The notes below the pieces were generated by a model that ran no database searches, was not told the origin of the DNA, and saw nothing but the letters and a program-made list of their open reading frames with translations. A stretch of 64,000 bases of DNA from Chondrosia reniformis (taxonomy: Eukaryota; Porifera; Demospongiae; Chondrillida; Chondrillidae), in assembly GCA_947172415.1 (NCBI GenBank), contig OX359198.1:341401-405400 (forward strand). The letters are read 5' to 3'. Below are positions 21,694 to 61,200 of the stretch, piece after piece (the stretch's first letter is position 1; each line of letters begins with the position of its first letter). Position numbers and translations under genes: made by a program.

Positions 21694-21979
21694 TTATTTC
21701 TTCTTCTTCTCTTTCTTGCACTTCTCCTCATCAATAGGAGCTGCTTTCACAAACTTGATAATGTCTCTATATTGAGGAGGCATCCACTGTTTTAGTACAT
21801 CTGGCACTGCCACGCCCTCCTCTGTCTGGTAGTTCTCCAGGATGGCACAGATGGTTCTGGTGGTGGCACACAATGTGGCATTCAACATGTGAACAAACTC
21901 AGTCTGTGGAGAAGAAGATGTCACATGTGAGGCTCAATATATGAATAGCAGTTCCATACACTTTAAAGAATTTCATCTT

Positions 21980-22080
21980 TTAATCTTTTTTGAGCATCTA
22001 AAGATGCATGTTTTTGTTGAAACATCTGACAAGAATTCTGAGAGGCTGTGTAGATGCTCAAAAGAGATTGAAAGATGAAC
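21980..22080. repeat. Small inverted-repeat element
   Basis: Ends are inverted (TTCATCTTTTAATCTTTTTT.. / AAAAGAGATTGAAAGATGAA, with GAGCATCT / AGATGCTC inside). About 100 bases, in a SerRS intron. Probably a short MITE. Confidence 0.55.
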
Positions 22081-22795
22081 CCTTTCAAAGGTAAGTTTGA
22101 CATAGTTAGAGAAGAATCCCGTATTATATATCAATCTTTCACTATTATAGCTGTTAGGTTAGCTATATCTATAGTTGAAGTAACACTCCCATAATTCTAC
22201 TGTACACAAGGATATCTAGCTGTAACATTAGCTACCTCAAGTATTTGACATTGTATTCATATATGTATATGCACATGTAACTAATATTAACCTAAATTCC
22301 AGTGATTGCATGATCATGGTGATATTGGACACTGGGGACTACACACATATCTGCAATATAATCTGCTGAGTGCAGTAAGATCCTCCCACTGCTACATTGT
22401 ACACATCTTATAACAGACCATGTGTTCATGTAATACTAGCGGACCCACCCCTGTGTTCATCTTCTTGGTCTGTCCATATCTAATGTGCAGTCTCCTCGAC
22501 TGATAGTCTGTGCAGTTTGAACAAGAAACTAGTTCTCTAAACACACCAGAATGGGGAAACCATGTTTCCAAATCTGAAGACAAAGAGAGATCAGAAAAAT
22601 ATATCTACAAGCAGGCAGGGAGGGAGTGAAGGAGGTAAGTGTGGGGGGTAGACTGGTGAATTAGAATTCGAGCGGGATACTATCAGAACTGTTTGGCTTA
22701 GTCTCTGAGACTGGTAAATCAAGAGGTAGACGACTGCAGGGCAAATGTCTCCTGATTACTTGCAGACATACCAGGCAGCCAGCTCAAAATACCTA

Positions 22796-23035
22796 AAGGA
22801 CTGGCAGGGAGGGAAGGAGGAGAGGGAAGATAGGTGGGTGGGGCAGGCAGGGAGGGAAGGAGGAGGGGGAAGATAGGTGGGTGGGGCAGGCAGGGAGGGA
22901 AGGAGGAGGGGGAAGATAGGTGGGTGGGGCAGGCAGGGAGGGAAGGAGGAGGGGGAAGATAGGTGGGTGGGGCAGGCAGGGAGGGAAGGAGGTAGGTGGG
23001 TGGGGCAGGCAGGGAGGGAAGGAGGTAGGGCAGGA
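22796..23035. repeat. G/C-asymmetric minisatellite in GC-AG intron
   Basis: Tandem GGAGGGAAGGAGG / TAGGTGGGTGGGGCAGGCAG units, starting a few bases after the GC splice donor on the transcribed strand. The plus strand is G-rich and could form quadruplexes. Confidence 0.9.
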
Positions 23036-23219
23036 AGACATTTTTACTAGACTTGCCAAGTTTCTTAGCTGCAGCATTGTTCAGTTCTCCTGAGACAATA
23101 TTGACTATTCTATAAGGAAGACCTAGTGCCTGATTGAACTTCTCAGCATTGTCAATCATTTCATCAAATAACTTCCAAGACTCTCCTTCATGAGGACTAG
23201 TCAGACAAAACTGTTCAAC

Positions 23220-29568: not shown

Positions 29569-29840
29569 TGCATAGCTTTCCTAATGGCAAAATTTGACTT
29601 CCGCACCAGCGCCATTCACCTGGCAGGCAAACTAAATATAGAGGGGCTGACGACCTATCCCACAAGCAAGCTGCAAGATTCCTCAAGACTCATCCCTCTG
29701 CTCTCCCATTCTTGTCACAGATCAATCCAGAGCTGCTAGAGTTACTCCTCAACACAACATGTAGCTGGATATCCAAACAGTGGAAGCTGTGCTACAACAG
29801 TTTCTGGACAAAGGATTAATTAGCCACCTCAACTCAGAGG

Positions 29841-30338
29841 GTGTACCAGTCAGGCCTAAGACACTACCTATCCTTCACTAGAGCACTCCAGATCTTCCCA
29901 GATCCCATATCCACAGAAAAAGAAACTCTATTTGTAGCCTACCTGGGAGCACAAGGTCCGTCTGTCTCAACCATCCAGTCGTATATGTCTGCACTACGTA
30001 ACACCAGACTTTTGACTGACCCCACCCTAAAGGACCCATCCTTCAACTCACCCTACATGGACATGCTCATCAGAGGTATAAAGCCCCACCACAGCCAAAC
30101 CTCCAGCGGTCCACAAATGATCAGACTTCCCATAACACCATCCATCATGAGAAGAATTAAACAGGCTTTAAGCACACAAAGCAAGAAATATCACAATCTC
30201 CTCATCTGGGCTGCATGCTGCACAGGGTTCTTTGGCTTTTTAAGATGTGGCGAATTTTTAGTTCCTGATGGAACTGAGTTCAACCAAGCTACCCATCTGT
30301 CTCTTGAGGTTATCTCTCTGGCAAAAACCTCCCCCTAA
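29841..30338 (+). pseudogene. Tyrosine recombinase, 3' truncated
   Basis: The N-terminal core-binding part (YLSFTRAL, STIQSYMSALRN) and the start of the catalytic domain (LIWAACCTGFFGFLRCGEF with the first catalytic Arg in FLRCGE) are present. The HxxR and Tyr of the active site are absent because the frame runs into an arm of the fold-back repeat at 30337. Confidence 0.75.
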
Positions 30339-35150: not shown

Positions 35151-35221
35151 CTTCTTTTTAGTTCCAATTTCTTTGCTACAAGTGTTCTTCAACTTGTTCC
35201 AATTGTCAACTTGGAATCTCA
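35151..35221 (-). pseudogene. Stranded SerRS exon (NKLKN)
   Basis: A 71-nt open exon identical in layout to 43966-44036: acceptor TAG|TG AGA TTC, then [22 protein letters not shown] and a GTACTA donor. It is flanked by the matching introns on both sides (34920-35470), but no neighbouring SerRS exon remains. Confidence 0.85.
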
Positions 35222-36738: not shown

Positions 36739-37439
36739 TTACGGGCGAATACCTCCATTCCTCCTTATATTCCATTTGTAGTCATACTTAGCAAGGAGTA
36801 CATTTTCCATCCTTTGAGCCTCCCCTTGCTTCTGGTCCAGAGTAGGAGCACCACACTGGCCTCTCTGTTGGCCTTCCAGATTAACCTTTTTTGTTCTCAC
36901 CCATATTTCATAACCATTTCTTAGGGCCCGATCAATAAGGTCTGCTTTGTGGCTACCATTTCTTGCATACTCCGAGAGACGGTCTGTGAGAGACCTATCA
37001 TTGCGTTGTCGGCAAGTGCAGCCTACATACACCACTTGAGAGTCTTCTATGAAGAGATGAAAGTATTAGTTATCTCCTGAGAACAGTGAAGGACTAGTCA
37101 ATGTGAAATATATGCCGTGTCCATATGCGGTTGATCTTCAACTAATATAATGCGATTGAAGTAATATGTATATGTATACAACCATTGTCACGTTCTTCCT
37201 GACCTCTGTTCCTGAACAATTTTAGTTCGTAGATACCACAGCCATCATCTTCAACAAAGTCTACAGGCTTTCGATAGTATCCCAGTGCATCGTTGTTTCT
37301 AGGTATATATCCATTCTGTTGGTCATTCCTCATCATAATGTGCCACCTAGTCCAGTCATCTCCTCCTAATCCCTTAACATTATTATTAACTGTAGCTGTC
37401 TCTCTGTAGTCTCTAGCTTTCTTCTTCTTTTCTTTCTTA
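36739..37439 (-). other. C-terminally fused GIY-YIG domain
   Basis: Directly after the SerRS KKEKKKK tail the frame continues as [10 protein letters not shown] into a GIY-YIG domain ([10 protein letters not shown], then [30 protein letters not shown]). In the other copies KKKK is followed by TAA and 1-2 kb of spacer. The closing exon ends RNGGIRP and TAA. Confidence 0.8.
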
Positions 37440-40400
37440 CACTTCTCCTCATCAATTGGAGCTGGTTTTACAAATTTGATAATGTCTCTATATTGAGGAG
37501 GCATCCATTGTTTTAGTACATCCGGCACTGCCACGCCCTCCTCTGTCTGGTAGTTCTCCAGGATGGCACAGATGGTTCTGGTGGTGGCACACAATGTGGC
37601 ATTCAACATGTGAACAAATTCAGTCTGTGGAGAAGAAGATGTCACATGTGAGGCGCTCAATGAACTTATAATATTATGTGAAAAGTCAGCTAGAGAGATG
37701 TACGATGTACATAGCAGTGAGGGCTTCAAAGAAGTACATATTTTTAGCCTAATAATACGTACAATAGTTCAAAATGAAACTAATACGTACATATAACTGG
37801 ATTATTAACTGAAATATCAATAGTTCAGTAAGATATAGTAAGATCCTCCCACTGCTACATTGTACACATCTTATAACAGACCCACCCCTGTGTTCTTCTT
37901 CTTGGTCTGTCCATATCTAATGTGCAGTCTCCTTGACTGATAGTCTGTGCAGTTTGAACAAGAAACTAGTTCTCTAAACACACCGGAATGGGGAAACCAC
38001 GCTTCCAAATCTGAAGACATGGAGAGACCAGAAAAATATATCTACAAGCAGGCAGGGAGGGAGGGAAGGAGGTAGGTGGGTGGGGCAGGCAGGGAGGGAA
38101 GGAGGTAGGTGGGTGGGGCAGGCAGGCAGGGAGGGAAGGAGGTAGGTGGGTGGGGCAGGCAGGGAGGGAGGAAAGGAGGTAGGTGGGGCAGGCAGGGAGG
38201 GAAGGAGGTAGGTGGGGCAGGCAGGGAGGGAAGGAGGTAGGTGGGTGGGGCAGGCAGGGAGGGAGGAAAGGAGGTAGGTGGGGCAGGCAGGGAGGGAAGT
38301 AGGTAGGTGGGTGGGGCAGGCAGGGAGGGAGGAAAGGAGGTAGGTGGGGCAGGCAGGGAGGGAAGGAGGTAGGTGGGGCAGGCAGGGAGGGAAGGAGGTA
38401 GGTGGGGCAGGCAGGGAGGGAAGGCAGACGTTTTTACTAGACTTGCCAAGTTTCTTAGCTGCAGCATTGTTCAGTTCTCCTGAGACAATATTGACTATTC
38501 TATAAGGTAGACCGAGTGCCTGATTGAACTTCTCAGCATTGTCAATCATTTCATCAAATAATTTCCAAGACTCTCCATCATGAGGACTAGTTAGACAAAA
38601 CTGTTCAACCTAACCACACCAGATTGGACAATGAGATAGTCATGAGATAAGGTACTGGAATATATAGCAGAGAACCATCACAATCTGACAATAGTCTCCT
38701 CCCATCATATACTCTTTTAAGTTCCTATTTAAAAAGTACTATACAATAGAGAAATGTGGTAGAGTTTCATTGGGGATGAATCTTTACCTATTCCATTAGT
38801 ACTGTCACATTATGTGCATTTCAGACCATTGCAGTCAGTCACATGGGACACTTTCAATTCAGCTGAGACAGACTGGTAAAATATACATGCACATACTCAA
38901 TAAATTTCATTTACCACCTGAAATCAGCTGACCTTTCAAACCTTATAGAGTATAGGTACCAGATATATACTTACGCTTATATGGAAATTGCAAAGCTTGT
39001 CTAAACAAAATTTTAATGATTTCAATTATCATTGACAACTTTAAGTACACAACTCAACTCCTCTCAACCATCTCCTATTAACCAATAGTGCAGAATTGTT
39101 AGCCAACCTTTTCAAACTGGTGAACTCTGAAGATTCCTCTTGTGTCTCTACCATGTGCTCCCACCTCTTGTCTGAAGCAGGTGGAGAAGCCAGCGTACCT
39201 CTTTGGTAGTTCAGAGGGGTCCATCCAGTCCCCGCGGTGGAAGGCAGCTATTGACTGCTCACTGGTAGCGATGAGGTACTTCTCCTCATCTCCTCCCTCC
39301 CCCACCACCTCACTGCTCTTACCTATCACCTACATATTATATACAAACATGCCCATTGTAACAATATAAATTACATATTAGTAATAAGCACACAGTGCGA
39401 ATGAGGATTACCATTACATTGATCATGCACTGGTATAGTACAGCAGGTATACCTGAATAACAATTACTTGTACAGTTTATATAACCCCAAGCTCCAGTTC
39501 AGCTCAGCTCAGCTATTTGGGGAGTGAACATGTCTCCAGGTTCACTCCCCAAATAGCTGAGTTATGGCAATCATGAATTTGATTTAACAAAATATTATTT
39601 CAGGTCCCTTAGATCACAGACTATTAGGAATTGAGTTAAGAGTTCTGGAAAACTGTTCCTTTACTTACTCTTATATACAGCAAGGTCCAAGTACACAGTC
39701 AATTACATATATCAACTCTTACAGAACCATATTCATGAAACCTATACACACTGCCATGCTGTAGTTACCTACATACATGGTTCTCACTCTCACCTGGTTT
39801 AGTTTCCTATAGTATTTCTATTTATTACAGAGTAGGTATAGAGGAAAATGTTATTTGTGAACAAAGGACCAGAAATTTGGGATTTGGTTGCTGTTACAAA
39901 TGTATACACTAAACGATATTCATTATACTGTACTTACACACCTACTAGCTGAGTTAAACTAATCATGAATTTGATTTAACAAAACATTGGAGTGAACAAC
40001 AATGACATCATATATATTACGTACATAGGCTGATGCATAGCAACCAAGGCCTGGGGTGTGGCAGATATTTGCTAGGCCTGTCACACAACAGAAGGATAAT
40101 TAAATGCATGATATTCATTGCTGAATAATTGTATTCACGACAAATGGGCACTTGCAGGATGTACATTGCACAATAGCAAGAAGTACGATAGATATACTGT
40201 ACCTATCTAAAAACAGGTAAAATTGCTGGTCACGCACACGTAAGTGTTGGGCTCGATTAGGCTTGCCCCAATTATTATTCTATGAAGGAAGATATATGTA
40301 TAATACAGTACTTTTTGGGTCGGTTGTCCAGACTGGACATTGCAATCGTATCATAAAAGGTTATCACTGCATGCATGGTGGCATCATTCAAGTGGGAAAG

Positions 40401-43400
40401 TTGTTCAAATGGTAGTTGTAAGTCACTGCCCAGCCTGGACAACTAAACTAAAAATGTATTGTATACAGTATTGTAGGTCCATCAAACCATTAGTCCATTA
40501 GTACAATTAACATGTGTAATATACTGCATATGTTGCTTATGCAAGCTATACATGCCCACTGTAACAGTATAAATTATATGTGAATACTATAAATATAATA
40601 TGTACACATATAATATCTACCATCAACCTCTCTCCTCTACCATCAACCTCTCCCTCTTCTACCATCAACCTCTCTCTACCATCAACCTCTCTCTCTTCTA
40701 CCATCAATCTCTCCCTCTTCTACCATCAACCTCTCCCTCTCCTACCATCAACCTCTCTCTCTCCTACCATCAACCTCTCCCTCTTCTACCATCAACCTCT
40801 CTCTCTCCTACCATCAACCTCTCTCTTCTACCATCAACCTCTCTCTACCATCAACCTCTCTCTCTTCTACCATCAACCTTCTCTCTCTTCTACCATCAAC
40901 CTCTCTCTCTCTTCTACCATCAACCTCTCTCTACCATCAACCTCTCTCTACCATCAACCTCTCTCTTCTACCATCAACCTCTCTCTCTCTTCTACCATCA
41001 ACCTCTCCCTCTTCTACCATCAACCTCTCCCTCTTCTACTATCAACCTCTCCCTCTTCTACCATCAACCTCTCCCTCTTCTACTATCAACCTCTCCCTCT
41101 TCTACCATCAACCTCTCTCTTCTACCATCAACCTCTCTCTCTTCTACCATCAACCTCTCTCTCTCCTACCATCAACCTCTCTCTACCATCAACCTTCTCT
41201 ATTCCATCAACCTCTCTCTTCTACCATCAACCTCTCTCTACCATCAACCTCTCTCTCTTCTACCATCAACCTCTCTCTTCTACCATCAACCTCTCTCTCT
41301 TCTACCATCAACCTCTCTCTACCATCAACCTCTCTCTACCATCAACCTCTCTCTACCATCAACCTCTCTCTTCTACCATCAACCTCTCTCTCTTCTACCA
41401 TCAACCTCTCCCTCTTCTACCATCAACCTCTCCCTCTTCTACTATCAACCTCTCCCTCTTCTACCATCAACCTCTCCCTCTTCTACTATCAACCTCTCCC
41501 TCTTCTACCATCAACCTCTCTCTTCTACCATCAACCTCTCTCTCTTCTACCATCAACCTCTCTCTCTCCTACCATCAACCTCTCTCTACCATCAACCTTC
41601 TCTATTCCATCAACCTCTCTCTTCTACCATCAACCTCTCTCTACCATCAACCTCTCTCTCTTCTACCATCAACCTCTCTCTTCTACCATCAACCTCTCTC
41701 TTCTACCATCAACCTCTCTCTTCCATCAACCTCTCTCTTCTACCATCAACCTCTCTCTCTTCTACCATCAACCTCTCTCTACCATCAACCTCTCTCTACC
41801 ATCAACCTCTCTCTACCATCAACCTCTCTCTTCTACCATCAACCTCTCTCTCTTCTACCATCAACCTCTCTCTTCCATCAACCTCTCCCTCTCTTCTACA
41901 CCATCAACCTCTCTCTCTCTTCTACCATCAACCTCTCTCTTCTACCATCAACCCCTCTCTTCCATCAACCTTCTCTCTCTCCTACCATCAACCCCTCTCT
42001 TCCATCAACCTCTCTCTTCTACCATCAACCTCTCTCTTCTACCATCAACCTATCTCTCCTACCATCAACCCCTCTCTTCCATCAACCTCTCTCTTCTACC
42101 ATCAACCTCTCTCTTCTACCATCAACCTCTCTCTACCATCAACCTTCTCTCTCCTACCATCAACCCCTCTCTTCCATCAACCTCTCTCTTCTACCATCAA
42201 CCTCTCTCTACCATCAACCTTCTCTCTCTCCTACCATCAACCCCTCTCTTCCATCAACCTCTCTCTTCTACCATCAACCTCTCTCTTCTACCATCAACCT
42301 CTCTCTACCATCAACCTCTCTCTTCTACCATCAACCTCTCTCTACCATCAACCTCTCTCTCTTCTACCATCAACCTCTCTCTTCTCCCACTCCTATAATG
42401 GTCCACCTTGTAGAGTTCCTCATCGAACTGACTGAGTTGTGCCACCTCCTGCATCACCTGACATTTGGGGAAAGAAAAGGATTAACCTCATATAGAGCCA
42501 ATTTTGTTAGACTTAATTAGCAGGGTTTACCTCTTTCTTCATAAAGAAGGGAACATAGAGTGGACAGTAATTTCTCTGAGAGAGCAGCTGAAGTCCAAAC
42601 TGAATGAGTGCCATCTCAAGAAACACACAAGGACCTGAGGAGGAGGGGGAGGAGAGGAGATAAGGAGGAGAGGAAGGGAGGCGAGGAGAGGAGAGGAGAG
42701 GAGAGGAGAGGAGGAGAGGAGAGAAGATGAGAGGAGGGGAGAGGAGGAGGGATGGGACATTAAAGGTTAATATGGTAAAAGTTAAGTTAATACCTCATAG
42801 TGGGTGGGTCACATGGACACTCCCCTCACCTTTCAAGTAGTAGCATCTGTTTCCAGCTGTCACTGTTCCTCTGTGCATGTCAGCTCCATCTATCATGACA
42901 ATGAGATCTACATGAGAGTACTTCTTCCTCTCCTTACAAGATCCCCACATTCTCTCTACAATGTTACCAGACACCTTCAGAGGGACACCAGCAAAAGGAT
43001 TAAGTGGTTACCATGGTTACAGGTCAGACCCACCTCATCAATACAGAAGGGCTGGCCTACCCAGACCCACCTCATCAATACTGAAGGGCTGGCCTACCCA
43101 GACTCACCTCATCATTACAGAAGGGCTGGCCTACCCAGACCCACCTCATCATTACAGAAGGGCTGGCCTACCCAGACCCACCTCATCATTACAGAAGGGC
43201 TGGCCTACCCAGACCCACCTCATCATTACAGAAGGGCTGGCCTACCCAGACCCACCTCATCATTACTGATGGGAACGCTGTCGTGAACCAGGTTGCCAAT
43301 CATGACAAGGTTCTTCGTTCTCTCCTCCTCCAGGCTCTTCATCTCAATCTGAGCTCGCTCATTCTCTGACTCAATTAACAACTGAATCTTTTTAATTTGA

Positions 43401-45195
43401 ACAACTGTGAGTGACTGTGGAATGGAAACAGAAGAGAAAGTGTGAGTGACTGTGGAATGGGGAGAGAAGAGAAATTGTGAGTGACTGTGGAATGGAGAGA
43501 GAAGAGAAATTGTGAGTGACTGTGGAATGGAGACAGAAGAGAAATTGTGAGTGACTGTGGAATTGAGACAGATGAGAAAGTAGAGAGAGGAGAACCATAG
43601 AGAGAGATAAAAACTAGATATAAACATATAGAAATTTGTGGTTAACCTTTAAGTCTTCAGGTTTCAAGTTCGCAAGGGTGTCCTGGACTTCTTGGGGAAT
43701 AGTGTCATCTTCTCCATCTGGCTCCTTGTTCTACAAGTACAACACAAACATAATACAGAAGAAAAAGGGAAAAAAGAGAAAAAAAGGGGAAAAAGGGTTC
43801 TATTTCACTAACCAACCTCATATAGTGGATATACATATTGTCAAAGTACTGTATAAGAAAATGGTGAATAATATATTTGAAGAATTGCCATATGCTATGA
43901 CATCAATCTTTGGCAGTACAGTAACTAAGATAGACAGGTGATATTGGAGTACACAATTATAGTACCTTCTTTTTAGTTCCAATTTCTTTGCTACAAGTGT
44001 TCTTCAACTTGTTCCAATTGTCAACTTGGAATCTCACTAGCGATAGAGGAGGAGAGTATTACATCAAAGGTACATTTCCAATTTTTGAAAACAAAATAAA
44101 TTCATCAATAAATACACAATTATGCATGTCACATTTCAATTATTACGACACACAATGTATATGTACTAACAAGATATCATTACATTTTAATCTCAAACAT
44201 ACAACTGAAGTAGGAGTGAGGGACTTGATGTCAGCCATGTTTTTTATAGGAAAATGGCATATAGATTTGTTTATTCATGACACAATAACTACACATGTAT
44301 ATGAGTTGTGTAACTTACACTTTCTCCATTTCGTGTCTGCTTCTACTACTCTGTCAACATAGGACGGATCTTTGAACCGATTTTTTTGGTTCTGTCGAAT
44401 CTTCTCCGGATCGCCTCCCTTGCAGAACAGATCCAACCTAAAATGTTTATCAGTTATAACTACATTGTTACTGATCAATTGAGCTCTTCTTACCGTCGAA
44501 TACCTCCATTCCTCCTTTTATTCCATTTGTAGTCATACTTAGCAAGGAGTACATTTTCCATCCTTTGAGCCTCCCCTTGCTTCTGGTCCAGAGTAGGAGC
44601 ACCACACTGGCCTCTCTGTTGGCCTTCCAGATTAACCTTCTTTGTTCTCACCTTTATTTGATAACCATCTTCTAGGGCCTGATCAATAAGGTCTGCTTTG
44701 TGGCTACCATTTCTTGCATACTCCGAGAGACGGTCTGTGAGAGACCTATCATTGCGTTGTCGGCAAGTGCAGCCTACATACACCACTTGAGAGTCTTCTA
44801 TGAAGAGATGAAAGTATTAGTTATCTCCTGAGAACAGTGAAGGACCAGACAATGTGAAATATATGCCGTGTCCATATGCGGTTGATCTTCAACTAATATA
44901 ATGCGATTGAAGTGATATGTATATATATACAACCATTGTCACGTTCTTCCTGACCTCTGTTCCTGTACAATTTTAGTTCGTAGATACCACAGCCATTCTC
45001 TCCATCTGCAACAAGGTCTTGTCTTCGACGGTATCCCGGTGCACCGTTGAGTCTAGCTTCATACTCTCCATTAGGATCAAGGTCGGGTCTCATTATAATG
45101 CGCCAATCGGTCCAGTCATCTCCTCCTAATCCCTCAACATCATTATTAACTTCATGATCAGCTGTCTCTCTAAATATTCTATTTCCAGCTGCCAT
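36739..45195 (-). CDS. GIY-YIG - seryl-tRNA synthetase - GIY-YIG fusion
   Basis: Exons in gene order: 45195-44934, 44797-44494, 44437-44319, 44036-43966, 43730-43647, 43414-43256, 42974-42830, 42634-42531, 42457-42407, 39329-39108, 38609-38447, 38010-37886, 37624-37183, 37046-36739 (TAA). All phases agree and the sum is 2,559 nt (852 aa). Residues 1-189 form a GIY-YIG domain (GIY at 70-72, YVG at 94-96, Arg110, Glu168, Asn180). Residues from 190 to about 672 are cytosolic SerRS: the tRNA-binding arm, motif 1 ending in FFMKKE, the TSEQ loop, motif 2 ([14 protein letters not shown]) and motif 3 (TTRTICAIL). The last 180 residues are a second GIY-YIG domain. SerRS charges tRNA-Ser; the nuclease-like parts have no known role in it. 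The loop reads TSEQS where the other copies have TSEQP, which may weaken charging. No Met occurs in the first three SerRS exons, so a start upstream is required. Confidence 0.75.
38011..38446 (-). other. GC-AG intron of SerRS
   Basis: The donor is TTG|GCAAGT and the acceptor CTTCAG|AT. Only this joint gives AAKKL-D-LEAWF, matching SerRS of other animals; a GT donor a few bases later would insert extra residues. The same GC donor is kept in the copies at 23051, 50313 and 59046. Confidence 0.8.
38041..38430. repeat. G/C-asymmetric minisatellite in GC-AG intron
   Basis: About a dozen units built from GGCAGGCAGGGAGGGAAGG and AGGTAGGTGGGTGGG, between the GC donor and the next exon. Shorter arrays lie at 50170-50305 and 58908-59038. 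Confidence 0.9.
39330..40609. other. SerRS intron, unique part
   Basis: Intron between the motif-2 exon and the exon at 42407. It contains the hairpin at 39510-39559 and no coding sequence. Copies run at 51208-52610 and 59941-61565. Confidence 0.6.
39510..39559. repeat. Perfect 20-bp stem hairpin
   Basis: CAGCTATTTGGGGAGTGAAC is followed, after a 10-base loop, by its exact reverse complement. A copy lies at 51414-51463 with one change confined to the loop. The third SerRS copy lacks it (junction near 60410). Confidence 0.9.
40610..42395. repeat. Long CTCT(A)CCATCAAC microsatellite
   Basis: About 1.8 kb of variable-length units (CTCTCTCTTCTACCATCAAC and shorter forms), ending 12 bases before the splice donor of the SerRS exon at 42407. 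Several sub-blocks are repeated as larger units of roughly 490 bases. Long open frames here are an artefact. Confidence 0.95.
42635..42755. repeat. GAGGA-rich tract at SerRS 3' splice site
   Basis: A purine-rich tandem tract that reads as a CT-rich tract on the transcribed strand and ends directly at the acceptor CCTCAG|GTCC of exon 42634-42531. Equivalent tracts at 53992-54088 and 62938-63074 differ in length. Confidence 0.85.
43024..43260. repeat. Minisatellite of 5' splice sites, copy 1
   Basis: Seven 37-base units. On the transcribed strand each carries GATGAGGTGGGT or GATGAGGTGAGT, which repeats the exon end and donor of SerRS exon 43414-43256. The first unit is the donor itself. Confidence 0.9.
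43395..43590. repeat. Minisatellite of 3' splice sites, copy 1
   Basis: Five units of about 35 bases. On the transcribed strand each reads as a CT-rich tract followed by CCATTCCACAG|TCACTCACA, i.e. the acceptor of exon 43414-43256 and its first codons. In the copy at about 55217-55320 only three units are present. Confidence 0.85.
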
Positions 45196-45532: not shown

Positions 45533-46409
45533 ACTTTCTCCATTTCGTGTCTGCTTCTACTACTCTGTCAACATAGGACGGATCTTTGAACCGATTTTTT
45601 TGGTTCTGTCGAATCTTCTCCGGATCGCCTCCCTTGCAGAACAGATCCAACCTAAAATGTTTATCAGTTATAACTACATTGTTACTGATCAATTGAGCTC
45701 TTCTTACCGTCGAATACCTCCATTCCTCCTTTTATTCCATTTGTAGTCATACTTAGCAAGGAGTACATTTTCCATCCTTTGAGCCTCCCCTTGCTTCTGG
45801 TCCAGAGTAGGAGCACCACACTGGCCTCTCTGTTGGCCTTCCAGATTAACCTTCTTTGTTCTCACCCATATTTGATAACCATTTCTTAGGGCCCGATCAA
45901 TAAGGTCTGCTTTGTGGCTACCATTTCTTGCATACTCCGAGAGACGGTCTGTGAGAGACCTATCATTGCGTTGTCGGCAAGTGCAGCCTACATACACCAC
46001 TTGAGAGTCTTCTATGAAGAGATGAAAGTATTAGTTATCTCCTGAGAACAGTGAAGGACCAGACAATGTGAAATATATGCCGTGTCCATATGCGGTTGAT
46101 CTTCAACTAATATAATGCGATTGAAGTGATATGTATATATATACAACCATTGTCACGTTCTTCCTGACCTCTGTTCCTGTACAATTTTAGTTCGTAGATA
46201 CCACAGCCATTCTCTCCATCTGCAACAAGGTCTTGTCTTCGACGGTATCCCGGTGCACCGTTGAGTCTAGCTTCATACTCTCCATTAGGATCAAGGTCGG
46301 GTCTCATTATAATGCGCCAATCGGTCCAGTCATCTCCTCCTAATCCCTCAACATCATTATTAACTTCACGATCAGCTGTCTCTCTAAATATTCTATTTCC
46401 AGCTGCCAT
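45533..46409 (-). CDS. GIY-YIG + SerRS N-terminal cassette 2
   Basis: Exons: 46409-46148, 46011-45708 and 45651-45533, i.e. a near-exact 1,214-base shift of the first three exons of the fusion gene. It encodes the complete GIY-YIG domain ([36 protein letters not shown]) and then [14 protein letters not shown] of SerRS. The next SerRS exon is not duplicated behind it, so the third exon ends in a phase-1 donor that could splice to 44036, skipping cassette 1. Without that splice, a stop in the 56-nt intron gives a stand-alone 189-aa GIY-YIG protein. It differs from cassette 1 in [10 protein letters not shown] instead of [10 protein letters not shown]. Confidence 0.7.
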
Positions 46410-46747: not shown

Positions 46748-47591
46748 ACTTTCTACATTTCGTGTCTGCTTCTACTACTCTGTCAACATAGGACGGATCT
46801 TTGAACCGATTTTTTTGGTTCTGTCGAATCTTCTCCGGATCGCCTCCCTTGCAGAACAGATCCAACCTAAAATGTTTATCAGTTATAACTACATTGTTAC
46901 TGATCAATTGAGCTCTTCTTACCGTCGAATATTTTCATTATTCCTTATATTCCATTTGTAGTCATACTTAGCAAGGAGTACATTTTCCATTCTTTCAGCC
47001 TCCCTTTGGCTCTCTACTCGATTAGGAGCACCACACTGGCCTCTCTGTTGGCCTTCCAGATTAACCTTTTTTGTTCTCACCCATATTTGATAACCATTTC
47101 TTAGGGCCCGATCAATAAGGTCTGCTTTGTGGCTACCATTTCTTGCATACTCCGAGAGACGGTCTGTGAGAGACCTATCATTGCGTTGTCGGCAAGTGCA
47201 GCCTACATACACCACTTGAGAGTCTTCTATGAAGAGATGAAAGTATTAGTTATCTCCTGAGAATAGTGAAGGACCAGACAATGTGAACTATATGCCGTGT
47301 CCATATGCGGTTGATCTTCAACTAATATAATGCGATTGAAGTAATATGTATATGTATACAACCATTGTCACGTTCTTCCTGACCTTGGCTCTTGTACAAT
47401 TTTAGTTCGTAGATACCACAGCCATCATCTTGAACAAAGTCTACGGGATTTCGATAGTATCCCAGTGCATCGTTGTGTCTAGGTATATATCCATCCTGTT
47501 GGTCATTCCTCATCATAATGTGCCACCTAGTCCAGTCATATTCTGCTAATATCTTATCATCACGAACGTCCTCTCTGTTTTCAGCTGCCAT
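46748..47591 (-). CDS. GIY-YIG + SerRS N-terminal cassette 3
   Basis: Exons: 47591-47363, 47226-46923 and 46866-46748, in phase. The start ATG gives [14 protein letters not shown]; an upstream in-frame extension exists but has no ATG near its head. The GIY-YIG domain is of a second sequence type ([35 protein letters not shown]) like that of the copy at 56.4-57.1 kb. The SerRS exon reads TKCRKC where cassettes 1 and 2 read TKWRKC. As in cassette 2, the later SerRS exons are only available by splicing past the downstream cassettes. Confidence 0.7.
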
Positions 47592-48126: not shown

Positions 48127-48336
48127 TTATTTCTTCTTCTTCTCTTTCTTGCACTTCTCCTCATCAATTGGAGCTGGTTTCACAAACTTGATAATGTCTC
48201 TATATTGAGGAGGCATCCATTGTTTTAGTACATCTGGCACTGCCACGCCCTCCTCTGTCTGGTAGTTCTCCAGGATGGCACAGATGGTTCTGGTGGTGGC
48301 ACACAATGTGGCATTCAACATGTGAACAAACTCGGT
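48127..48336 (-). pseudogene. Extra SerRS terminal exon
   Basis: A 210-nt open exon (acceptor [24 protein letters not shown] ... KKEKKKK, TAA), a second copy of the terminal exon 1.4 kb beyond that of the gene at 49542-57081. Its upstream partner exon survives only as a donor fragment near 48575. It could act as an alternative last exon, or be a leftover of unequal exchange. The third gene copy has lost it. Confidence 0.75.
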
Positions 48337-49541: not shown

Positions 49542-52500
49542 TTATTTCTTCTTCTTTTCTTTCTTGCACTTCTCCTCATCAATTGGAGCTGGTTTCACAA
49601 ACTTGATAATGTCTCTATATTGAGGAGGCATCCATTGTTTTAGTACATCCGGCACTACCACGCCCTCCTCTGTCTGGTAGTTCTCCAGGATGGCACAGAT
49701 GGTTCTGGTGGTGGCACACAATGTGGCATTCAACATGTGAACAAATTCAGTCTGTGGAGAAGAAGATGTCACATGTGAGGCGCTCAATGAACTTATAATA
49801 TTATGTGAAAAGTCAGCTAGAGAGATGTACAATGTACATAGCAGTGAGGGCTTCGAAGAAGTACATATTTTTAGCCTACATAATATGTACAATAGTTCAA
49901 AATGAAACTAATACATACATATAACTGGATTATTAACTGAAATATCAATAGTTCAGTAAGATATAGTAAGATCCTCCCACTGCTACATTGTACACATCTT
50001 ATAACAGACCCACCCCTGTGTTCTTCTTCTTGGTCTGTCCATATCTAATGTGCAGTCTCCTCGACTGATAGTCTGTGCAGTTTGAACAAGAAACTAGTTC
50101 TCTAAACACACCGGAATGGGGAAACCACGTTTCCAAATCTGAAGACATGGAGAGACCAGAAAAATATATCTACAAGCAGGCAGGCAGGGAGGGAAGGAGG
50201 TAGGTGGGTGGGGCAGGCAGGGAGGAAAGGAGGTAGGTGGGTGGGGCAGGCAGGGAGGAAAGGAGGTAGGTGGGTGGGGCAGACAGGGAGGGAAGGCAGA
50301 CGTTTTTACTAGACTTGCCAAGTTTCTTAGCTGCAGCATTGTTCAGTTCTCCTGAGACAATATTGACTATTCTATAAGGTAGACCGAGTGCCTGATTGAA
50401 CTTCTCAGCATTGTCAATCATTTCATCAAATAACTTCCAAGACTCTCCATCATGAGGACTAGTCAGACAAAACTGTTCTACCTAACCATATCAGATTGGA
50501 CAATGAGATAGTCATGAGATAAGGGACTGGAATATACAAATAGCAGATAACCATCACAATTTGACATTAAGCTCCTCTCATCATATACTCTTTAATTACC
50601 TACTTAAAAAGTACTATACCATCATATGATATAGAAATACAGTTTCATTGGGGATGAATCTTTACCTATTCCATTAGTACTGTCACATTATGTGCATTTC
50701 AGACCATTGCAGTCAGTCACATGGGACACTTTCAATTCAGCTGAGACAGACTGGTAAAATATACATGCACATACTCAATAAATTTCATTTACCACCTGAA
50801 ATCAGCTGACCTTTCAAACCTTATAGAGTATAGGTACCAGATATATACTTACGCTTATATGGAAATTGCAAAGCTTGTCTAAACAAAATTTTAATGATTT
50901 CAATTATCATTGACAACTTTAAGTACACAACTCAACTCCTCTCAACCATCTCCTATTAACCAATAGTGCAGAATTGTTAGCCAACCTTTTCAAACTGGTG
51001 AACTCTGAAGATTCCTCTTGTGTCTCTACCATGTGCTCCCACCTCTTGTCTGAAGCAGGTGGAGAAGCCAGCGTACCTCTTTGGTAGGTCAGAGGGGTCC
51101 ATCCAGTCCCCGCAGTGGAAGGCAGCAATCGGCTGCTCACTGGTAGCAATGAGGTACTCCTCCTCATCTCCTCCCTCCCCCACCACCTCACTGCTCTTAC
51201 CTATCACCTACATATTATATACAAACATGCCCATTGTAAAAATATAAATTACATATTAGTAATAAGCACACAGTGCAAATGCAATGAGGATTTCCATTAC
51301 ATTGACCATTGGTATAGGTACATGAACATGCACTGGTATAGTACAGCAGGTATACCTGAATAACAATTACTTGTACAGTTTATATAACCCCAAGCTCCAT
51401 GTTCAGTTCAGCTCAGCTATTTGGGGAGTGAACATGTCTCCATGTTCACTCCCCAAATAGCTGAGTTATGGCAATCATGAATTTGATTTAACAAAATATT
51501 ATTTCAGGTCCCTTAGATCACAGACTATTAGGAATTGAGTTAAGAGTTCTGGAAAACTGTTCCTTTACTTACTCTTATATACAGCAAGGTCCAAGTACAC
51601 AGTCAATTATATATACCAACTCTTACAGAACCATATTCATGAAACCTATACACACTGCCATGCTGTAGTTACCTACATACATGGTTCTCACTCTCACCTG
51701 GTTTAGTTTCTCACTTGGTTTAGTTTCCTATAGTATTTCTATTTATTACAGAGTAGGTATAGAGTTTAGGAAAATGTTATTTGTGAACAAGGACCAGAAA
51801 TTTGGGATTTGGTTGCTGTTACAAATGTATACACTAAATGATATTCATTATACTGTACTTACACACCTACTAGCTGAGTTAAACTAATCATGAATTTGAT
51901 TAAACAAAATATTATTACAGACATCTAATAGCTGAGTAAAACTAATCATGAATTTGATTTAACAAAACATTGGAGTGAACAACAATGACATCATATATAT
52001 TACGTACATAGGCTGATGCATAGCAACCAAGGCCTGGGGTGTGGCAGATATTTGCTAGGCCTGTCACACAACAGAACAATAGTTAAATGCATGATATTCA
52101 TTGCTGAATAATTGTATTCACGACAAATGGGCACTTGCAGGATGTACATTGCACAATAGCAAGATATAAGATAGATATACTGTACCTATCTAAAAACAGA
52201 TAAAATTGCTGGTCACCCACATAAGTGTTGGGCTCGCTTAGGCTTGCCCCAATTATTATTCTATGAAGGAAGATATACGTATAATGCAGTACTTTTTGGG
52301 TTGGTTGTCCAGACTGGACATTGCAATTGGTATATCATAAAAGGTTATCACAGCATGCATGGTGGCATCATTCCAGTGGGAAAGTTGTTCAAATGGTAGT
52401 TGCAAGTCACTGGCCAGCCTGGACAACTAAACTAAAAAAGTACTGTATACGGTATTGTAGGAACCATTAGTCTATTAGTACAATTTACATGTGTAATATA

Positions 52501-55500
52501 CTGCATATGTTGCTTATGCAAGCTATATACATACATGCTCACTGTAACAATATAAATTATATGTGCACACTATTAATATAATATATAAGAGATGCAACCC
52601 TTACACATGTACATCTACTATCAACCTTCTCTCTTCTACCATCAACCTCTCCCTCTTCTACCATCAACCCCTCTCTCTTTTACCATCAACCTCTCTCTCT
52701 TCTACCATCAACCTCTCTCTCTCCTACCATCAACCTCTCTCTCTTCTATAATCAACCTCTCCCTCTTCTACCATCAACCTCTCTCTTCTACCATCAACCT
52801 TCTCTCTTCTACCATCAACCTCTCCCTCTTCTACCATCAACCCCTCTCTCTTTTACCATCAACCTCTCTCTCTTCTACCATCAACCTCTCTCTCTCCTAC
52901 CATCAACCTCTCTCTCTTCTATAATCAACCTCTCCCTCTTCTACCATCAACCTCTCCCTCTTCTACCATCAACCTCTCTCTTCTACCATCAACCTCTCTC
53001 TCTTCTACCATCAACCTCTCTCTCTTTTACCATCAACCCCTCTCTCTTTTACCATCAACCTCTCTCTCTTCTACCATCAACCTCTCTCTCTTCTACCATC
53101 AACCTCTCTCTCTTCTACCATCAACCTCTCCCTCTTCTACCATCAACCTCTCTCTCTTCTACCATCAACCTCTCTCTCTTCTACCATCAACCTCTCTCTC
53201 TCCTACCATCAACCTCTCTCTCTTCTATAATCAACCTCTCCCTCTTCTACCATCAACCCCTCTCTCTTTTACCATCAACCTCTCTCTCTTCTACCATCAA
53301 CCTCTCTCTCTTCTACCATCAACCTCTCCCTCTTCTACCATCAACCTCTCTCTCTTCCATCAACCTCTCCCTCTTCTACCATCAACCTCTCTCTCTTCTA
53401 CTATCAACCTCTCTCTCTTCTACCATCAACCTCTCTCTCTTCTACCATCAACCTCTCTCTCTTCTACCATCAACCCCTCTCTCTTCTACCATCAACCTCT
53501 CTCTTCTACCATCAACCTCTCTCTCTTCTACCATCAACCTCTCTCTTCTACCATCAACCTCTCTCTCTTCTACCATCAACCTCTCTCTCTCTTCTACCAT
53601 CAACCTCTCTCTCTTCTACCATCAACCTCTCTCTCTTCTACCATCAACCTCTCTCTCTTCTACCATCAACTTCTCTCTCTTCTACCATCAACCTCTCTCT
53701 ACCATCAACCTCTCTCTCTTCTACCATCAACCTCTCTCTTCTCCCACTCCTATAATGGTCCACCTTGTAGAGTTCCTCATCGAACTGACTGAGTTGTGCC
53801 ACCTCCTGCATCACCTGACATTTGGGGGAAGAAAAGGATTAACCTCATATAGAGCCAATTTTGTTAGATTTAATTAGAAGGGTTTACCTCTTTCTTCATA
53901 AAGAAGGGAACATAGAGTGGACAGTAATTTCTCTGAGAGAGCAGCTGAAGTCCAAACTGAATGAGCGCCATCTCAAGAAACACACAAGGACCTGAGAAGG
54001 AGGGGGAGGAGAGGAGATGGAGGAGGAGAGGAGAGAAGGCGAGGGGGAGAAGAGGAGAGAAGATGAGAGGAGAGAAGATGAGAGGAGGGACATTAAAGGT
54101 TAATATGGTAAAAGTTAAGTTAATACCTCATAGTGGGTGGGTCACATGGACCACTCCCCTCACCTTTCAAGTAGTAGCATCTGTTTCCAGCTGTCACTGT
54201 TCCTCTATGCATGTCAGCTCCATCTATCATGACAATGAGATCTACATGAGAGTACTTCTTCCTCTCCTTACAAGATCCCCACATTCTCTCTACAATGTTA
54301 CCAGACACCTTCAGAGGGACACCAGGAGAAGGATTAAGTGGTTACCATGGTTACAGGTCAGACCCACCTCATCAATACAGAAGGGCTGGCCTACCCAGAC
54401 CCACCTCATCATTACAGAAGGGCTGGCCTACCCAGACCCACCTCATCAATACTGAAGGGCTGGCCTACCCAGACCCACCTCATCAATACTGAAGGGCTGG
54501 CCTACCCAGACTCACCTCATCATTACAGAAGGGCTGGCCTACCCAGACCCACCTCATCATTACAGAAGGGCTGGCCTACCCAGACCCACCTCATCATTAC
54601 AGAAGGGCTGGCCTACCCAGACTCACCTCATCATTACAGAAGGGCTGGTCTACCCAGACCCACCTCATCATTACAGAAGGGCTGGCCTACCCAGACCCAC
54701 CTCATCATTACAGAAGGGCTGGCCTACCCAGACCCACCTCATCATTACAGAAGGGCTGGCCTACCCACCCACCTCATCATTACAGAAGGGCTGGCCTACC
54801 CAGACCCACCTCATCATTACAGAAGGGCTGGCCTACCCAGACCCACCTCATCATTACAGAAGGGCTGGCCTACCCACCCACCTCATCATTACAGAAGGGC
54901 TGGCCTACCCAGACCCACCTCATCATTACAGAAGGGCTGGCCTACCCAGACTCACCTCATCATTACAGAAGGGCTGGCCTACCCAGACCCACCTCATCAT
55001 TACAGAAGGGCTGGCCTACCCAGACTCACGTCATCATTACAGAAGGGCTGGCCTACCCAGACTCACCCTATCATTACTGATGGGAACGCTGTCGTGAACC
55101 AGGTTGCCAATCATGTCAAGGTTCTTTGTTCTCTCCTCCTCCAGGCTCTTCATCTCAATCTGAGCTCGCTCGTTCTCTGACTCAATTAACAATTGAATCT
55201 TTTTAATTTGAACAACTGTGAGTGACTGTGGAATGGAGAGAGAAGAGAAAGTGTGAGTGACTGTGGAATGGAGACAGAAGAGAAATTGTGAGTGACTGTG
55301 GAATTGAGACAGATGAGAAAGTAGAGAGAGGAGAACCATAGAGAGAGATAAAAACTAGATATAGACATATAGAAATTTGTGGTTAACCTTTAAATCTTCA
55401 GGTTTCAAGTTCGCAAGGGTGTCCTGGACTTCTTGGGGAATAGTGTCATCTTCTCCATCTGGCTCCTTGTTCTACAAGTACAACACAAACATCATACAGA

Positions 55501-57081
55501 AGAAAAAGGGAAAAAAGAGAAAAAAAGGGGAAAAAGAGAAAAAAAGGGGAAAAAGGGTTCTATTTCACTAACCAACCTCATATAGTGGATATACATATTG
55601 TCAAAGTACTGTATAAGAAAATGGTGAATAATATATTTGAAGAATTGCCATATGCTATGACATCAATCTTTGGCAGTACAGTAACTAAGATAGACAGGTG
55701 ATATTGGAGTACACAATTATAGTACCTTCTTTTTAGTTCCAATTTCTTTGCTACAAGTGTTCTTCAACTTGTTCCAATTGTCAACTTGGAATCTCACTAG
55801 CAATAGAGGAGGAGAGTATTACATCAAAGGTACATTTCCAATTTTTGAAAACAAAATGAATTCATCAATAAATACACATGTCACATTTCAATTATTACGA
55901 CACACAATGTATATGTACTAACAAGATATCATTACATTTTAATCTGAAACATACAACTGAAGTAGGAGTGAGGGAAGGTGGTGGACGATGCATACAAAAC
56001 CTCTGAACTCAGCTATGTTATATAAATAAAACAACATACACACATGTTAGGCTTGGGAAAATACTATAAATGCTGTACATTATATATGGTGGAGGTACTA
56101 GAGTTTGTATGTATTTATATAGTATAGCAGCCTAATACCTAATATTGATGTCAGCCATGTTTTTTATAGGAAAATGGTGTTTAGATTATTCGTGGCACAA
56201 TAACTACGTATGTATGTATATGAGTTGTGTAACTTACACTTTCTACATTTCGTGTCTGCTTCTACTACTCTGTCAACATAGGACGGATCTTTGAACCGAT
56301 TTTTTTGGTTCTGTCGAATCTTCTCCGGATCGCCTCCCTTGCAGAACAGATCCAACCTAAAATGTTTATCAGTTATAACTACATTGTTACTGATCAATTG
56401 AGCTCTTCTTACCGTCGAATATTTTCATTATTCCTTATATTCCATTTGTAGTCATACTTAGCAAGGAGTACATTTTCCATTCTTTCAGCCTCCCTTTGGC
56501 TCTCTACTCGATTAGGAGGACCACACCGGCCATCCTGTTGGCCTTCCAGATTAACCTTCTTTGTTCTCACCTTTATTTGATAACCATCTTCTAGGGCCTG
56601 ATCAATAAGGTCTGCTTTGTGGCTACCATTTCTTGCATACTCCGAGAGACGGTCTGTGAGAGACCTATCATTGCGTTGTCGGCAAGTGCAGCCTACATAC
56701 ACCACTTGAGAGTCTTCTATGAAGAGATGAAAGTATTAGTTATCTCCTGAGAACAGTGAAGGACCAGACAATGTGAAATATATGCCGTGTCCATATGCAG
56801 TTGATCTTCAACTAATATAATGCGATTGAAGTAATATGTATATGTATACAACCATTGTCACGTTCTTCCTGACCTTGGCTCTTGTACAATTTTAGTTCGT
56901 AGATACCACAGCCATCATCTTGAACAAAGTCTACGGGATTTCGATAGTATCCCAGTGCATCGTTGTGTCTAGGTATATATCCATCCTGTTGGTCATTCCT
57001 CATCATAATGTGCCACCTAGTCCAGTCATATCCTCCTAATATCTTATCATCACGAACGTCCTCTCTGTTTTCAGCTGCCAT
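49542..57081 (-). CDS. GIY-YIG - seryl-tRNA synthetase fusion
   Basis: Exons: 57081-56853, 56716-56413, 56356-56238, 55796-55726, 55471-55388, 55225-55067, 54308-54164, 53991-53888, 53814-53764, 51207-50986, 50481-50319, 50138-50014, 49751-49542 (TAA). All phases agree: 1,986 nt, 661 aa. The GIY-YIG part (about 178 aa) is of the second sequence type. The SerRS part is complete, with the TSEQP loop, motif 2 and motif 3. Differences from the first gene: HCGDW for HRGDW and PSDL for PSEL near motif 2, NDR for NDE at the end of the exon at 55067, and TKCRKC in the arm. It should act as a cytosolic SerRS with an N-terminal nuclease-like extension, unless the GIY-YIG exons are used separately. Confidence 0.75.
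50170..50305. repeat. Short G/C-asymmetric minisatellite
   Basis: About four units, the short form of the array at 38041-38430, inside the GC-AG intron. Confidence 0.85.
51414..51463. repeat. Perfect 20-bp stem hairpin, second copy
   Basis: Same stem as 39510-39559. Only the loop differs, by one base. Confidence 0.9.
52612..53745. repeat. CTCT(A)CCATCAAC microsatellite, second copy
   Basis: About 1.1 kb of the same units as at 40610-42395, with its own higher-order repeat. It ends next to the splice donor of the exon at 53764. Confidence 0.95.
54357..55066. repeat. Minisatellite of 5' splice sites, copy 2
   Basis: About 20 units of the 37-base repeat, most with GAGGTGGGT or GAGGTGAGT on the transcribed strand. 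The exon-proximal unit has GATAGG|GTGAGT instead of GATGAG. Confidence 0.9.
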
Positions 57082-58275: not shown

Positions 58276-61200
58276 TTATTTCTTCTTCTTCTCTTTCTTG
58301 CACTTCTCCTCATCAATTGGAGCTGGTTTCACAAACTTGATAATGTCTCTATATTGAGGAGGCATCCATTGTTTTAGTACATTCGGCACTGCCACGCCCT
58401 CCTCTGTCTGGTAGTTCTCCAGGATGGCACAGATGGTTCTGGTGGTGGCACACAATGTGGCATTCAACATGTGAACAAATTCAGTCTGTGGAGAAGAAGA
58501 TGTCACATGTGAGGCGCTCAATGAACTTATAATATTATGTGAAAGTCAGCTAGAGAGATGTACGATGTACATAGCAGTGAGGGCTTCGAAGAAGTACATA
58601 TTTTTAGCCTACATAATACGTACAATAGTTCAAAATGAAACTAATACATACATATAACTGGATTATTAACTGAAATATCAATAGTTCAGTAAGATATAGT
58701 AAGATCCTCCCACTGCTACATTGTACACATCTTATAACAGACCCACCCCTGTGTTCTTCTTCTTGGTCTGTCCATATCTAATGTGCAGTCTCCTCGACTG
58801 ATAGTCTGTGCAGTTTGAACAAGAAACTAGTTCTCTAAACACACCGGAATGGGGAAACCACGTTTCCAAATCTGAAGACATGGAGAGACCAGAAAAATAT
58901 ATCTACAAGCAGGCAGGCAGGGAGGGAAGGAGGTAGGTGGGTGGGGCAGGCAGGGAGGAAAGGAGGTAGGTGGGTGGGGCAGGCAGGGAGGAAAGGAGGT
59001 AGGTGGGTGGGGCAGACAGGGAGGGAAGGCAGACGTTTTTACTAGACTTGCCAAGTTTCTTAGCTGCAGCATTGTTCAGTTCTCCTGAGACAATATTGAC
59101 TATTCTATAAGGTAGACCGAGTGCCTGATTGAACTTCTCAGCATTGTCAATCATTTCATCAAATAACTTCCAAGACTCTCCATCATGAGGACTAGTCAGA
59201 CAAAACTGTTCTACCTAACCATATCAGATTGGACAATGAGATAGTCATGAGATAAGGGACTGGAATATACAAATAGCAGATAACCATCACAATTTGACAT
59301 TAAGCTCCTCTCATCATATACTCTTTAATTACCTACTTAAAAAGTACTATACCATCATATGATATAGAAATACAGTTTCATTGGGGATGAATCTTTACCT
59401 ATTCCATTAGTACTGTCACATTATGTGCATTTCAGACCATTGCAGTCAGTCACATGGGACACTTTCAATTCAGCTGAGACAGACTGGTAAAATATACATG
59501 CACATACTCAATAAATTTCATTTACCACCTGAAATCAGCTGACCTTTCAAACCTTATAGAGTATAGGTACCAGATATATACTTACGCTTATATGGAAATT
59601 GCAAAGCTTGTCTAAACAAAATTTTAATGATTTCAATTATCATTGACAACTTTAAGTACACAACTCAACTCCTCTCAACCATCTCCTATTAACTAATAGT
59701 GCAGAATTGTTAGCCAACCTTTTCAAACTGGTGAACTCTGAATATTCCTCTTGTGTCTCTGCCATGTGCTCCCACCTCTTGTCTGAAGCAGGTGGAGAAG
59801 CCAGCGTACCTCTTTGGTAGTTCAGAGGGGTCCATCCAGTCCCCACGGTGGAAGGCAGCAATCGGCTGCTCACTGGTGGCAATGAGGTACTTCTCCTCAT
59901 CTCCTCCCTCCCCCACCACCTCACTGCTCTTACCTATCACCTACATATTATATACAAACAAGCCCATAGTAAAAATATAAATTACATATTAGTAATAAGC
60001 ACACAGTACGAATGAGTATTTCTGATACATGTACTGGCATGTTTACTGAATAACAATATAATATAATGCACATGAACAGGTATACCTGAATAACAATTAC
60101 TTGTACAGTTTATATAGGCCTTTTCACACTTGCAACGATAATGCGCATTAATCGGTTTCACACGATAAAATTTCAATGCGCATTCGATTCCTCGATCCGC
60201 CTTAATGCGCATCGACCCAATTCACCTCCAGAGGTGCATTGGGTGCGGTTAAAGGGCATTAAGGAAAACAATTGTATACAGTTAGGCTTGCGGTTAGAGT
60301 AAATGTGAACGGGTCGAAACGCTTTCAAAGCGCATTAAACCGATGCGAATTCGATCCTAATTCAAATGCGCATCGCAATGTGAAAAGGCCTTATAACCCC
60401 AAGCTCCAGTTTATGGCAATCATGAATTTGATTTAACAAAACATTATTTCAGGTCCCTTAGATCACAGACTATTAGGAATTGAGTTAAGAGTTCTGGAAA
60501 ACTGTTCCTTTACTTACTCTTATATACAGCAAGGTCCAAGTACACAGTCAATTACATATATCAACTCTTACAGAACCATATTCATGAAAACTATACACAC
60601 TGCCATGCTGTAGTTACCTACATACATGGTTCTCACTCTCACTTGGTTTAGTTTCTCACCTGGTTTAGTTTCCTATAGTATTTCTATTTATTACAGAGTA
60701 GGTATAGAGTTTAGGAAAATGTTATTTGTGAACAAGGACCAGAAATTTGGGATTTGGTTGCTGTTACAAATGTATACACTAAATGATATTCATTATACTG
60801 TACTTACACACCTACTAGCTGAGTTAAACTAATCTTGAATTTGGTTAAACAAAATATTATTACAGACATCTAATAGCTGAGTAAAACTAATCATGAATTT
60901 GATTTAACAAAACATTGGAGTGAACAACAATGACATCATATATATTACGTACATAGGCTGATGCATAGCAACCAAGGCCTGGGGTGTGGCAGATATTTGC
61001 TAGGCCTGTCACACAACAGAACAATAGTTAAATGCATGATATTCATTGCTGAATAATTGTATTCACGACAAATGGGCACTTGCAGGATGTACATTGCACA
61101 ATAGCAAGATATAAGATAGATATACTGTACCTATCTAAAAACAGATAAAATTGCTGGTCACCCACATAAGTGTTGGGCTCGCTTAGGCTTGCCCCAATTA

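Follow-up and report, generated by a model that had tools for sequence, protein, structure and literature searches.

GIY-YIG nuclease-type domains probably fused to seryl-tRNA synthetase in a tandem gene array of the sponge Chondrosia reniformis

In the genome of Chondrosia reniformis, two GIY-YIG exons lie directly upstream of exons encoding seryl-tRNA synthetase (SerRS), and the question is whether nuclease-type domain and synthetase form one protein and, if so, at which end they are joined. The window studied here is a stretch of 64,000 nucleotides (C10:341401-405400; the assembly comprises 117,379,552 bases in 15 contigs). It carries a minus-strand tandem array of SerRS and GIY-YIG exons, which continues beyond the window. 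An earlier note on this DNA proposed a fusion of GIY-YIG with SerRS. There is good support for such a fusion, but most of all at the C-terminus, in genes A and D, where one open exon covers the transition; the N-terminal form that the note described hangs on splicing out the TAA of the GIY frame. The model of gene D is as follows (SerRS exons are labelled S1 to S12, in a numbering without S10, and were placed by the exon join).

36739-45195, minus strand: whole model of gene D, 14-exon join, GIY-SerRS-GIY, 852 aa
44934..45195, minus strand: N-terminal GIY exon a, open frame with its own start, GIY motif, PF19239 match
44494..44797, minus strand: N-terminal GIY exon b (YVG...R...E...N), open frame, PF19239 match
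44490..44492, minus strand: TAA closing the GIY frame if unspliced, overlapping the putative donor GTAAGA (from the sequence and the ORF 44490-44816)
44438..44493, minus strand: putative 56-nt intron separating GIY exon b from SerRS S1, GT-AG, phases matching
44319..44437, minus strand: S1, truncated, first residues LDLF
43966..44036, minus strand: S2
43647..43730, minus strand: S3
43256..43414, minus strand: S4
42830..42974, minus strand: S5
42531..42634, minus strand: S6
42407..42457, minus strand: S7
39108..39329, minus strand: S8, also a PF00587 match
38447..38609, minus strand: S9, with a GC donor
37886..38010, minus strand: S11
37183..37624, minus strand: S12, the last SerRS exon, running in frame and without the SerRS stop into C-terminal GIY exon a (open frame 37142-37768)
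36739..37046, minus strand: C-terminal GIY exon b, open frame with the terminal TAA, placed by the exon join

Joined in silico, the 14 exons are open for 852 aa with one stop only, the terminal one, so the recomputed join agrees with the earlier note. The other particulars given there also hold: the two GIY-YIG exons upstream of SerRS are present (45195-44934 and 44797-44494), the translations of the first three SerRS exons contain no Met, the gap is 56 nt long with the letters CG/GTAAGA ... TTTTAG/G and a matching codon split, and a second GIY/SerRS junction is found at 56413/56356, in gene C. What had been missed is a second, C-terminal GIY-YIG domain formed by the final two exons of the join, with no intron between it and the synthetase in the sense that the last SerRS exon reads straight into GIY exon a. 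The 852-aa product matches PF02403 (Seryl_tRNA_N arm) and PF00587 (class II core) above cut-off. The S7-S8 intron of gene D holds a long GGTTGATGGTAGAAGAGAGA-type minisatellite (40620-42406), across which opposite-strand frames are open for up to 651 codons by repetition only. The S9-S11 intron (38011-38446 in gene D) is of the GC-AG type, with a GC donor, in all four SerRS copies (A, B, C, and D).

The remaining members of the array are the following.

C10:413328-407549, minus strand, just outside the window: gene A, complete SerRS with C-terminal GIY-YIG, 669 aa
58276..63288, minus strand: gene B, window part, S5-S12 with normal stop; S2-S4 lie past the window end
49542..57081, minus strand: gene C, GIY, truncated S1 and SerRS ending in the normal stop (KKEKKKK stop); constraint not significant
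48130..48333, minus strand: stray copy of the last SerRS exon, ending in the normal stop
46748..47591, minus strand: extra GIY-S1 unit without its own S2; joins in frame in silico to the gene D body
45533..46409, minus strand: extra GIY-S1 unit without its own S2; joins in frame in silico to the gene D body

From ATG to stop, the frame of gene A contains Seryl_tRNA_N, tRNA-synt_2b, and PF19239, and its 669-aa product matches PF02403 and PF00587 above cut-off. In the last exon, SerRS passes into GIY-YIG within one open, stop-free exon, and the same is seen in gene D; the Lys-rich stretch KCKKEKKKK precedes the C-terminal GIY part. The canonical start MVLDLDLF, with residues 1-4 kept, occurs in gene A only, that is, in one of five S1 exons that a search scoring best candidates only detected in the 117-Mb assembly. 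It is absent from the S1 exons of C, D, and the two extra GIY-S1 units. A composite SerRS body (exon 1 of gene A and the exons of gene D, with no GIY part) matched 29 distinct PDB sequences, the best being 8p7b, a cytoplasmic serine--tRNA ligase (E 2.4e-216, residues 1-488), which we take to be the human protein; the match of this GIY-less query ends at residue 487 of the 8p7b chain. We consider the C-terminal SerRS-GIY-YIG fusion predicted from these frames very probable.

Genome-wide, six copies of GIY exon b and six of GIY exon a were found by a search scoring best candidates only, all of them inside the array. The SerRS copies are mosaics, gene C resembling D near the 5' end and B at the 3' end. 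Gene B has S2-S12, and no S1 was found for it. The S8-S12 introns of B and C (58486-59718 and 49752-50985, respectively) show 3 differences in 945 aligned bases, and upstream the two are not alike; the near-identity points to recent conversion or unequal crossing-over. Isolated SerRS exons at 6415-6636 (S8), 21697-23219 (S9, S11, and S12), and 35151-35219 (S2) are duplication leftovers. Elsewhere, C11:846335-849093 (S8, S9, and S12) and C10:501703 (S8) hold only SerRS parts in the 20 kb around each, and an exon at C4:629813, judged by eye, is presumably of the threonyl type.

The N-terminal junction involves a stop codon that the earlier note overlooked. In the GIY frame, the donor of gene D, CG/GTAAGA, reads CGG TAA, and the unspliced GIY frame stops there. 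A TAA stands at this site in all six array copies; in the C-terminal copies, where it closes the protein, the letters are CTG TAA (A) and CCG TAA (D). Among four related proteins described below, the end of P0001 and P0002 coincides with the array TAA, P0003 ends one residue later, and P0004 three residues later. This TAA is the usual stop of the GIY family and, as the donor overlaps it, the N-terminal join needs splicing that takes out a stop. Compared with intact gene A, S1 of gene D lacks SerRS residues 1-4 (MVLD) and two further codons. After TTTTAGGTT, the C-terminal copies go on TAGCATAAAATAA, while the four N-terminal copies go on GGATCTGTTC; this differing continuation indicates that a SerRS gene, severed just downstream of its start, was put at this point.

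The acceptor of the gap is TTTTAG/G, and the phase of the 56 nt fits. In 2000 dinucleotide shuffles of the spacer, an in-frame join with strict GTRAG...YAG signals arose in 0.5% of cases, and in 24.8% of the same shuffles if any GTR donor was allowed. All four GIY-S1 units (47591, 46409, 45195, and gene C) are open when joined in silico to the body of gene D. The N-terminal fusion is thus supported indirectly, by the phase, by the donor, and by the constraint on start-less gene D described below. We regard the N-terminal GIY-SerRS join as plausible and fairly probable; the 56-nt intron would then be spliced.

The two parts of the fusion differ in the way they change. Tree-based omega, approximate here because the copies recombine into mosaics, was 0.128 for SerRS exons S2-S12 among genes A-D (LRT against 1, p 6e-15) and 2.15 for the six GIY copies (LRT p 0.002, with kappa on a grid). 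Likelihood ratios for GIY subsets yielded p 0.0025 for GIYb, p 0.013 for ungapped GIYa, p 0.20 for GIYa trimmed to 35 codons, and p 0.0004 for all ungapped positions, the direction (omega above 1) being taken from the full GIY estimates and from counts. Tree-free counts for the six GIY copies were 93.8 nonsynonymous vs 14.2 synonymous changes (ratio 1.73, p 0.026), with a ratio of 2.62 in GIYb (p 0.04) and 1.25 in GIYa (p 0.35). This nonsynonymous excess is modest, and GIYa exceeds the intron in the density of synonymous changes as well (p 0.009). Between the C-terminal copies of A and D, the GIY part has 36 nonsynonymous and 5 synonymous changes, and the SerRS part 7 and 33, respectively (Fisher p 9e-11). 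The GIY frames are open in six of six copies; in a neutral simulation of 4000 runs, all six were stop-free in 0.2%.

Constraint on SerRS is specific to the copy. Unique synonymous and nonsynonymous changes number 17 and 4 in A (p 4e-9 against neutral), 10 and 2 in D (p 5e-6), 6 and 4 in B (p 0.007), and 3 and 7 in C (p 0.33, compatible with neutral evolution). The most constrained copies are therefore A and D, the two with a C-terminal GIY, and D, although start-less, is still under purifying selection. As D is constrained and lacks its own SerRS start, something upstream should supply one, and the GIY exons are the nearest candidate. Still, constraint does not prove a working start, since C, with the same junction, shows no significant constraint and B, without S1, is somewhat constrained. 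Moreover, the constraint seen in D could be an effect of gene conversion. Between C and D, 11 of 269 sites in the start-less GIY-S1 unit differ, as do 96 of 2129 in the introns (S7-S8 intron left out). Given this similar divergence, D has been start-less for about as long as it has been constrained.

To place the GIY domain, relatives were sought in a protein collection, in viral and prokaryote contigs, and in PDB, with C. reniformis as the sole animal genome. The GIY domain of gene D matches PF19239, which we take to be the ET-type GIY-YIG model (E 6.6e-12, 45.9 bits vs the cut-off of 21.4), and this profile matches six exons genome-wide, all above cut-off. Residues Y84, G86, R100, E152, and N164 (P0003 numbering) are invariant in alignments A1 (7 rows) and A2 (10 rows); Y84, R100, E152, and N164 are presumably the catalytic Tyr, Arg, Glu, and Asn of the GIY-YIG superfamily. 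The GIY triplet, encoded in the other exon, is kept in the five full-length rows of A1. In a collection of 5.8 billion proteins, four of 43 candidates matched the domain, namely P0001 and P0002, both from one 8.1-Mb contig, and P0003 (174 aa) and P0004 (163 aa), which are stand-alone single open frames matching PF19239 above cut-off. P0003 is 42-44% identical to three sponge copies, and P0004 37% to one. Both resemble the sponge copies at the start and end, but lack SerRS. A query of the last SerRS exon plus GIYa found both parts in P0005 only, among 120 of 228 matches listed; the letters of P0005 equal gene D except for the first residue.

Other searches with the GIY part yielded little. None of 161 long protein candidates sharing words with it matched at E <= 1. 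Scans with short exact patterns, in collections without animals, gave 18 (P0003) and 36 (alignment A1) pattern matches in viral contigs and 16 (A1) in prokaryote genome contigs, none of them confirmed. In PDB, the best sequence match had E 0.8 and the profile had 0 matches; the best PHROGs match (E 0.008) was to a family of unknown function. A Penelope-type endonuclease or Penelope-like retroelement was considered and rejected, as only PF19239, and not PF01541, matched up to E 10, products A and D contain no reverse transcriptase, and the six copies are all in the array.

The domain that the sponge product has in common with the plant EFFECTOR OF TRANSCRIPTION proteins (ET1/ET2) is GIY-YIG; the ET paper compares it with E. 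coli UvrC, reports that the ET2 domain cleaves single strands of DNA, and describes ET genes as found only in plants (PMC6585611). ET proteins have Cys-rich DNA-binding ET repeats and no synthetase, whereas the sponge product ends right after GIY, with no Cys-rich ET repeats by inspection and no further domain above cut-off. Vertebrate cytosolic SerRS likewise has a C-terminal addition after a Lys-rich stretch, UNE-S, in which we know of no nuclease motif. UNE-S is described as sending SerRS to the nucleus, as necessary for DNA binding by SerRS, and as disordered in the crystal (PMC4057782). A precedent with a tRNA-acting enzyme is the fusion of GIY-YIG to a TrmH-type tRNA methyltransferase (PMC1564403), but that protein combines a Slx1-like domain with a methyltransferase, not a synthetase.

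The explanation we lean towards, on the strength of the DNA itself, is that a stand-alone ET-like GIY-YIG gene was fused in frame behind a cytosolic SerRS gene, at its 3' end, with loss of the SerRS stop and of the GIY start, and that unequal crossing-over then produced the tandem array. In gene D, an upstream GIY-YIG would have replaced the lost SerRS start via the 56-nt intron, which removes the GIY stop, to give GIY-SerRS-GIY. The SerRS part would charge tRNA-Ser. The GIY-YIG attached to it, in which the catalytic residues are conserved and the other positions change fast, may nick foreign or damaged nucleic acid, and SerRS, a dimer with a Lys-rich linker, would be its carrier to the nucleus or to tRNA. 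Because the GIY domain diversifies, its role may lie in an arms race, that is, in conflict or defence. The frames, exons, domains, kept residues, copy number, copy-specific constraint, and contrast in selection are read directly from the letters. A point against this explanation is that the unspliced GIY is a complete protein, the putative donor being the usual stop of its family. A more far-reaching idea, which we consider quite unlikely, is that the four GIY-S1 units (47591, 46409, 45195, and gene C), each with its own ATG, are interchangeable first-exon cassettes for one SerRS body ending in GIY-YIG, so that diversifying nuclease heads would be chosen in protocadherin fashion, for use in genetic conflict or defence.

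Alternatively, only the C-terminal fusion may be real, the N-terminal GIY units being separate genes that end at the TAA and B, C, and D being decaying, 5'-truncated SerRS duplicates. This has a substantial chance of being correct, although we think it is probably not. It agrees with the TAA in all six copies and the ends of P0001-P0004, and the truncated S1 starts at a duplication breakpoint, TTTTAGGTT being common to the 3' flank of the C-terminal copies; moreover, C looks neutral, B is without S1, and two of the four GIY-S1 units lack their own S2. It is at odds with the 10 synonymous vs 2 nonsynonymous unique changes of start-less D, with a breakpoint that lies 3 nt beyond the acceptor in the right phase, and with the rarity of strict in-frame joins in shuffles.

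We think it unlikely that a mobile or selfish GIY-YIG domain is hitch-hiking here on an essential gene, its fusions being tolerated by-products with no job for SerRS. The fast protein change and the tandem spread of units speak for this reading, and many GIY-YIG fusions may reflect domain mobility only (PMC1564403). In Ircinia sponges, a GIY-YIG locus, perhaps of the family seen here, is reported to be under balancing selection and is listed among mobile elements (PMC7990798). Yet all six GIYb and six GIYa copies found in the genome sit in this one array, the fused products A and D contain no transposase, reverse transcriptase, or integrase, and constraint on SerRS is strongest in the copies with a C-terminal fusion. 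That the array is an assembly artefact or a haplotype mix-up is highly improbable. Tandem repeats and the long minisatellite in the S7-S8 intron do invite mis-assembly, but the window contains no N, the published QV of the primary assembly is 69.8 (PMC12181767), the array pieces P0005 and P0009 are also listed on a contig of 743,937 bases, a length that no chromosome of this assembly has, and the pooled introns differ by 4.5-22% between copies.

Synthetases often gain extra domains. The earlier note knew of no description of this fusion, and we also found none in literature and protein searches (animal genomes: C. reniformis only). A full-text literature search, with most subscription journals outside its scope, returned no paper on GIY-YIG with seryl-tRNA synthetase or SerRS; matches for a fusion of GIY-YIG with an aminoacyl-tRNA synthetase were judged unrelated by title and the opening of the abstract, and among the listed matches for nuclease domains on synthetases only PMC1564403 was useful. 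If the fusion is real, a nuclease-type domain on SerRS would tie the translation machinery to nucleic-acid cleavage, and an ET-like GIY-YIG, so far described in plant regulators, would be at work in an animal. This GIY sits on the sole canonical-start SerRS copy found, and changes fast while the enzyme body stays constant.

The window contains no tRNA genes, and Rfam had no matches over 36000-58500. Outside the array, 29820-30335 is an open frame with weak, below-cut-off resemblance to a phage-integrase SAM-like domain and may be a piece of a retroelement. A 413-codon open frame on the plus strand (17614-18852) encodes a THAP + HTH + DDE transposase, and a 711-codon open frame on the minus strand (2796-4928) matches DUF6729 (E 2.6e-80).
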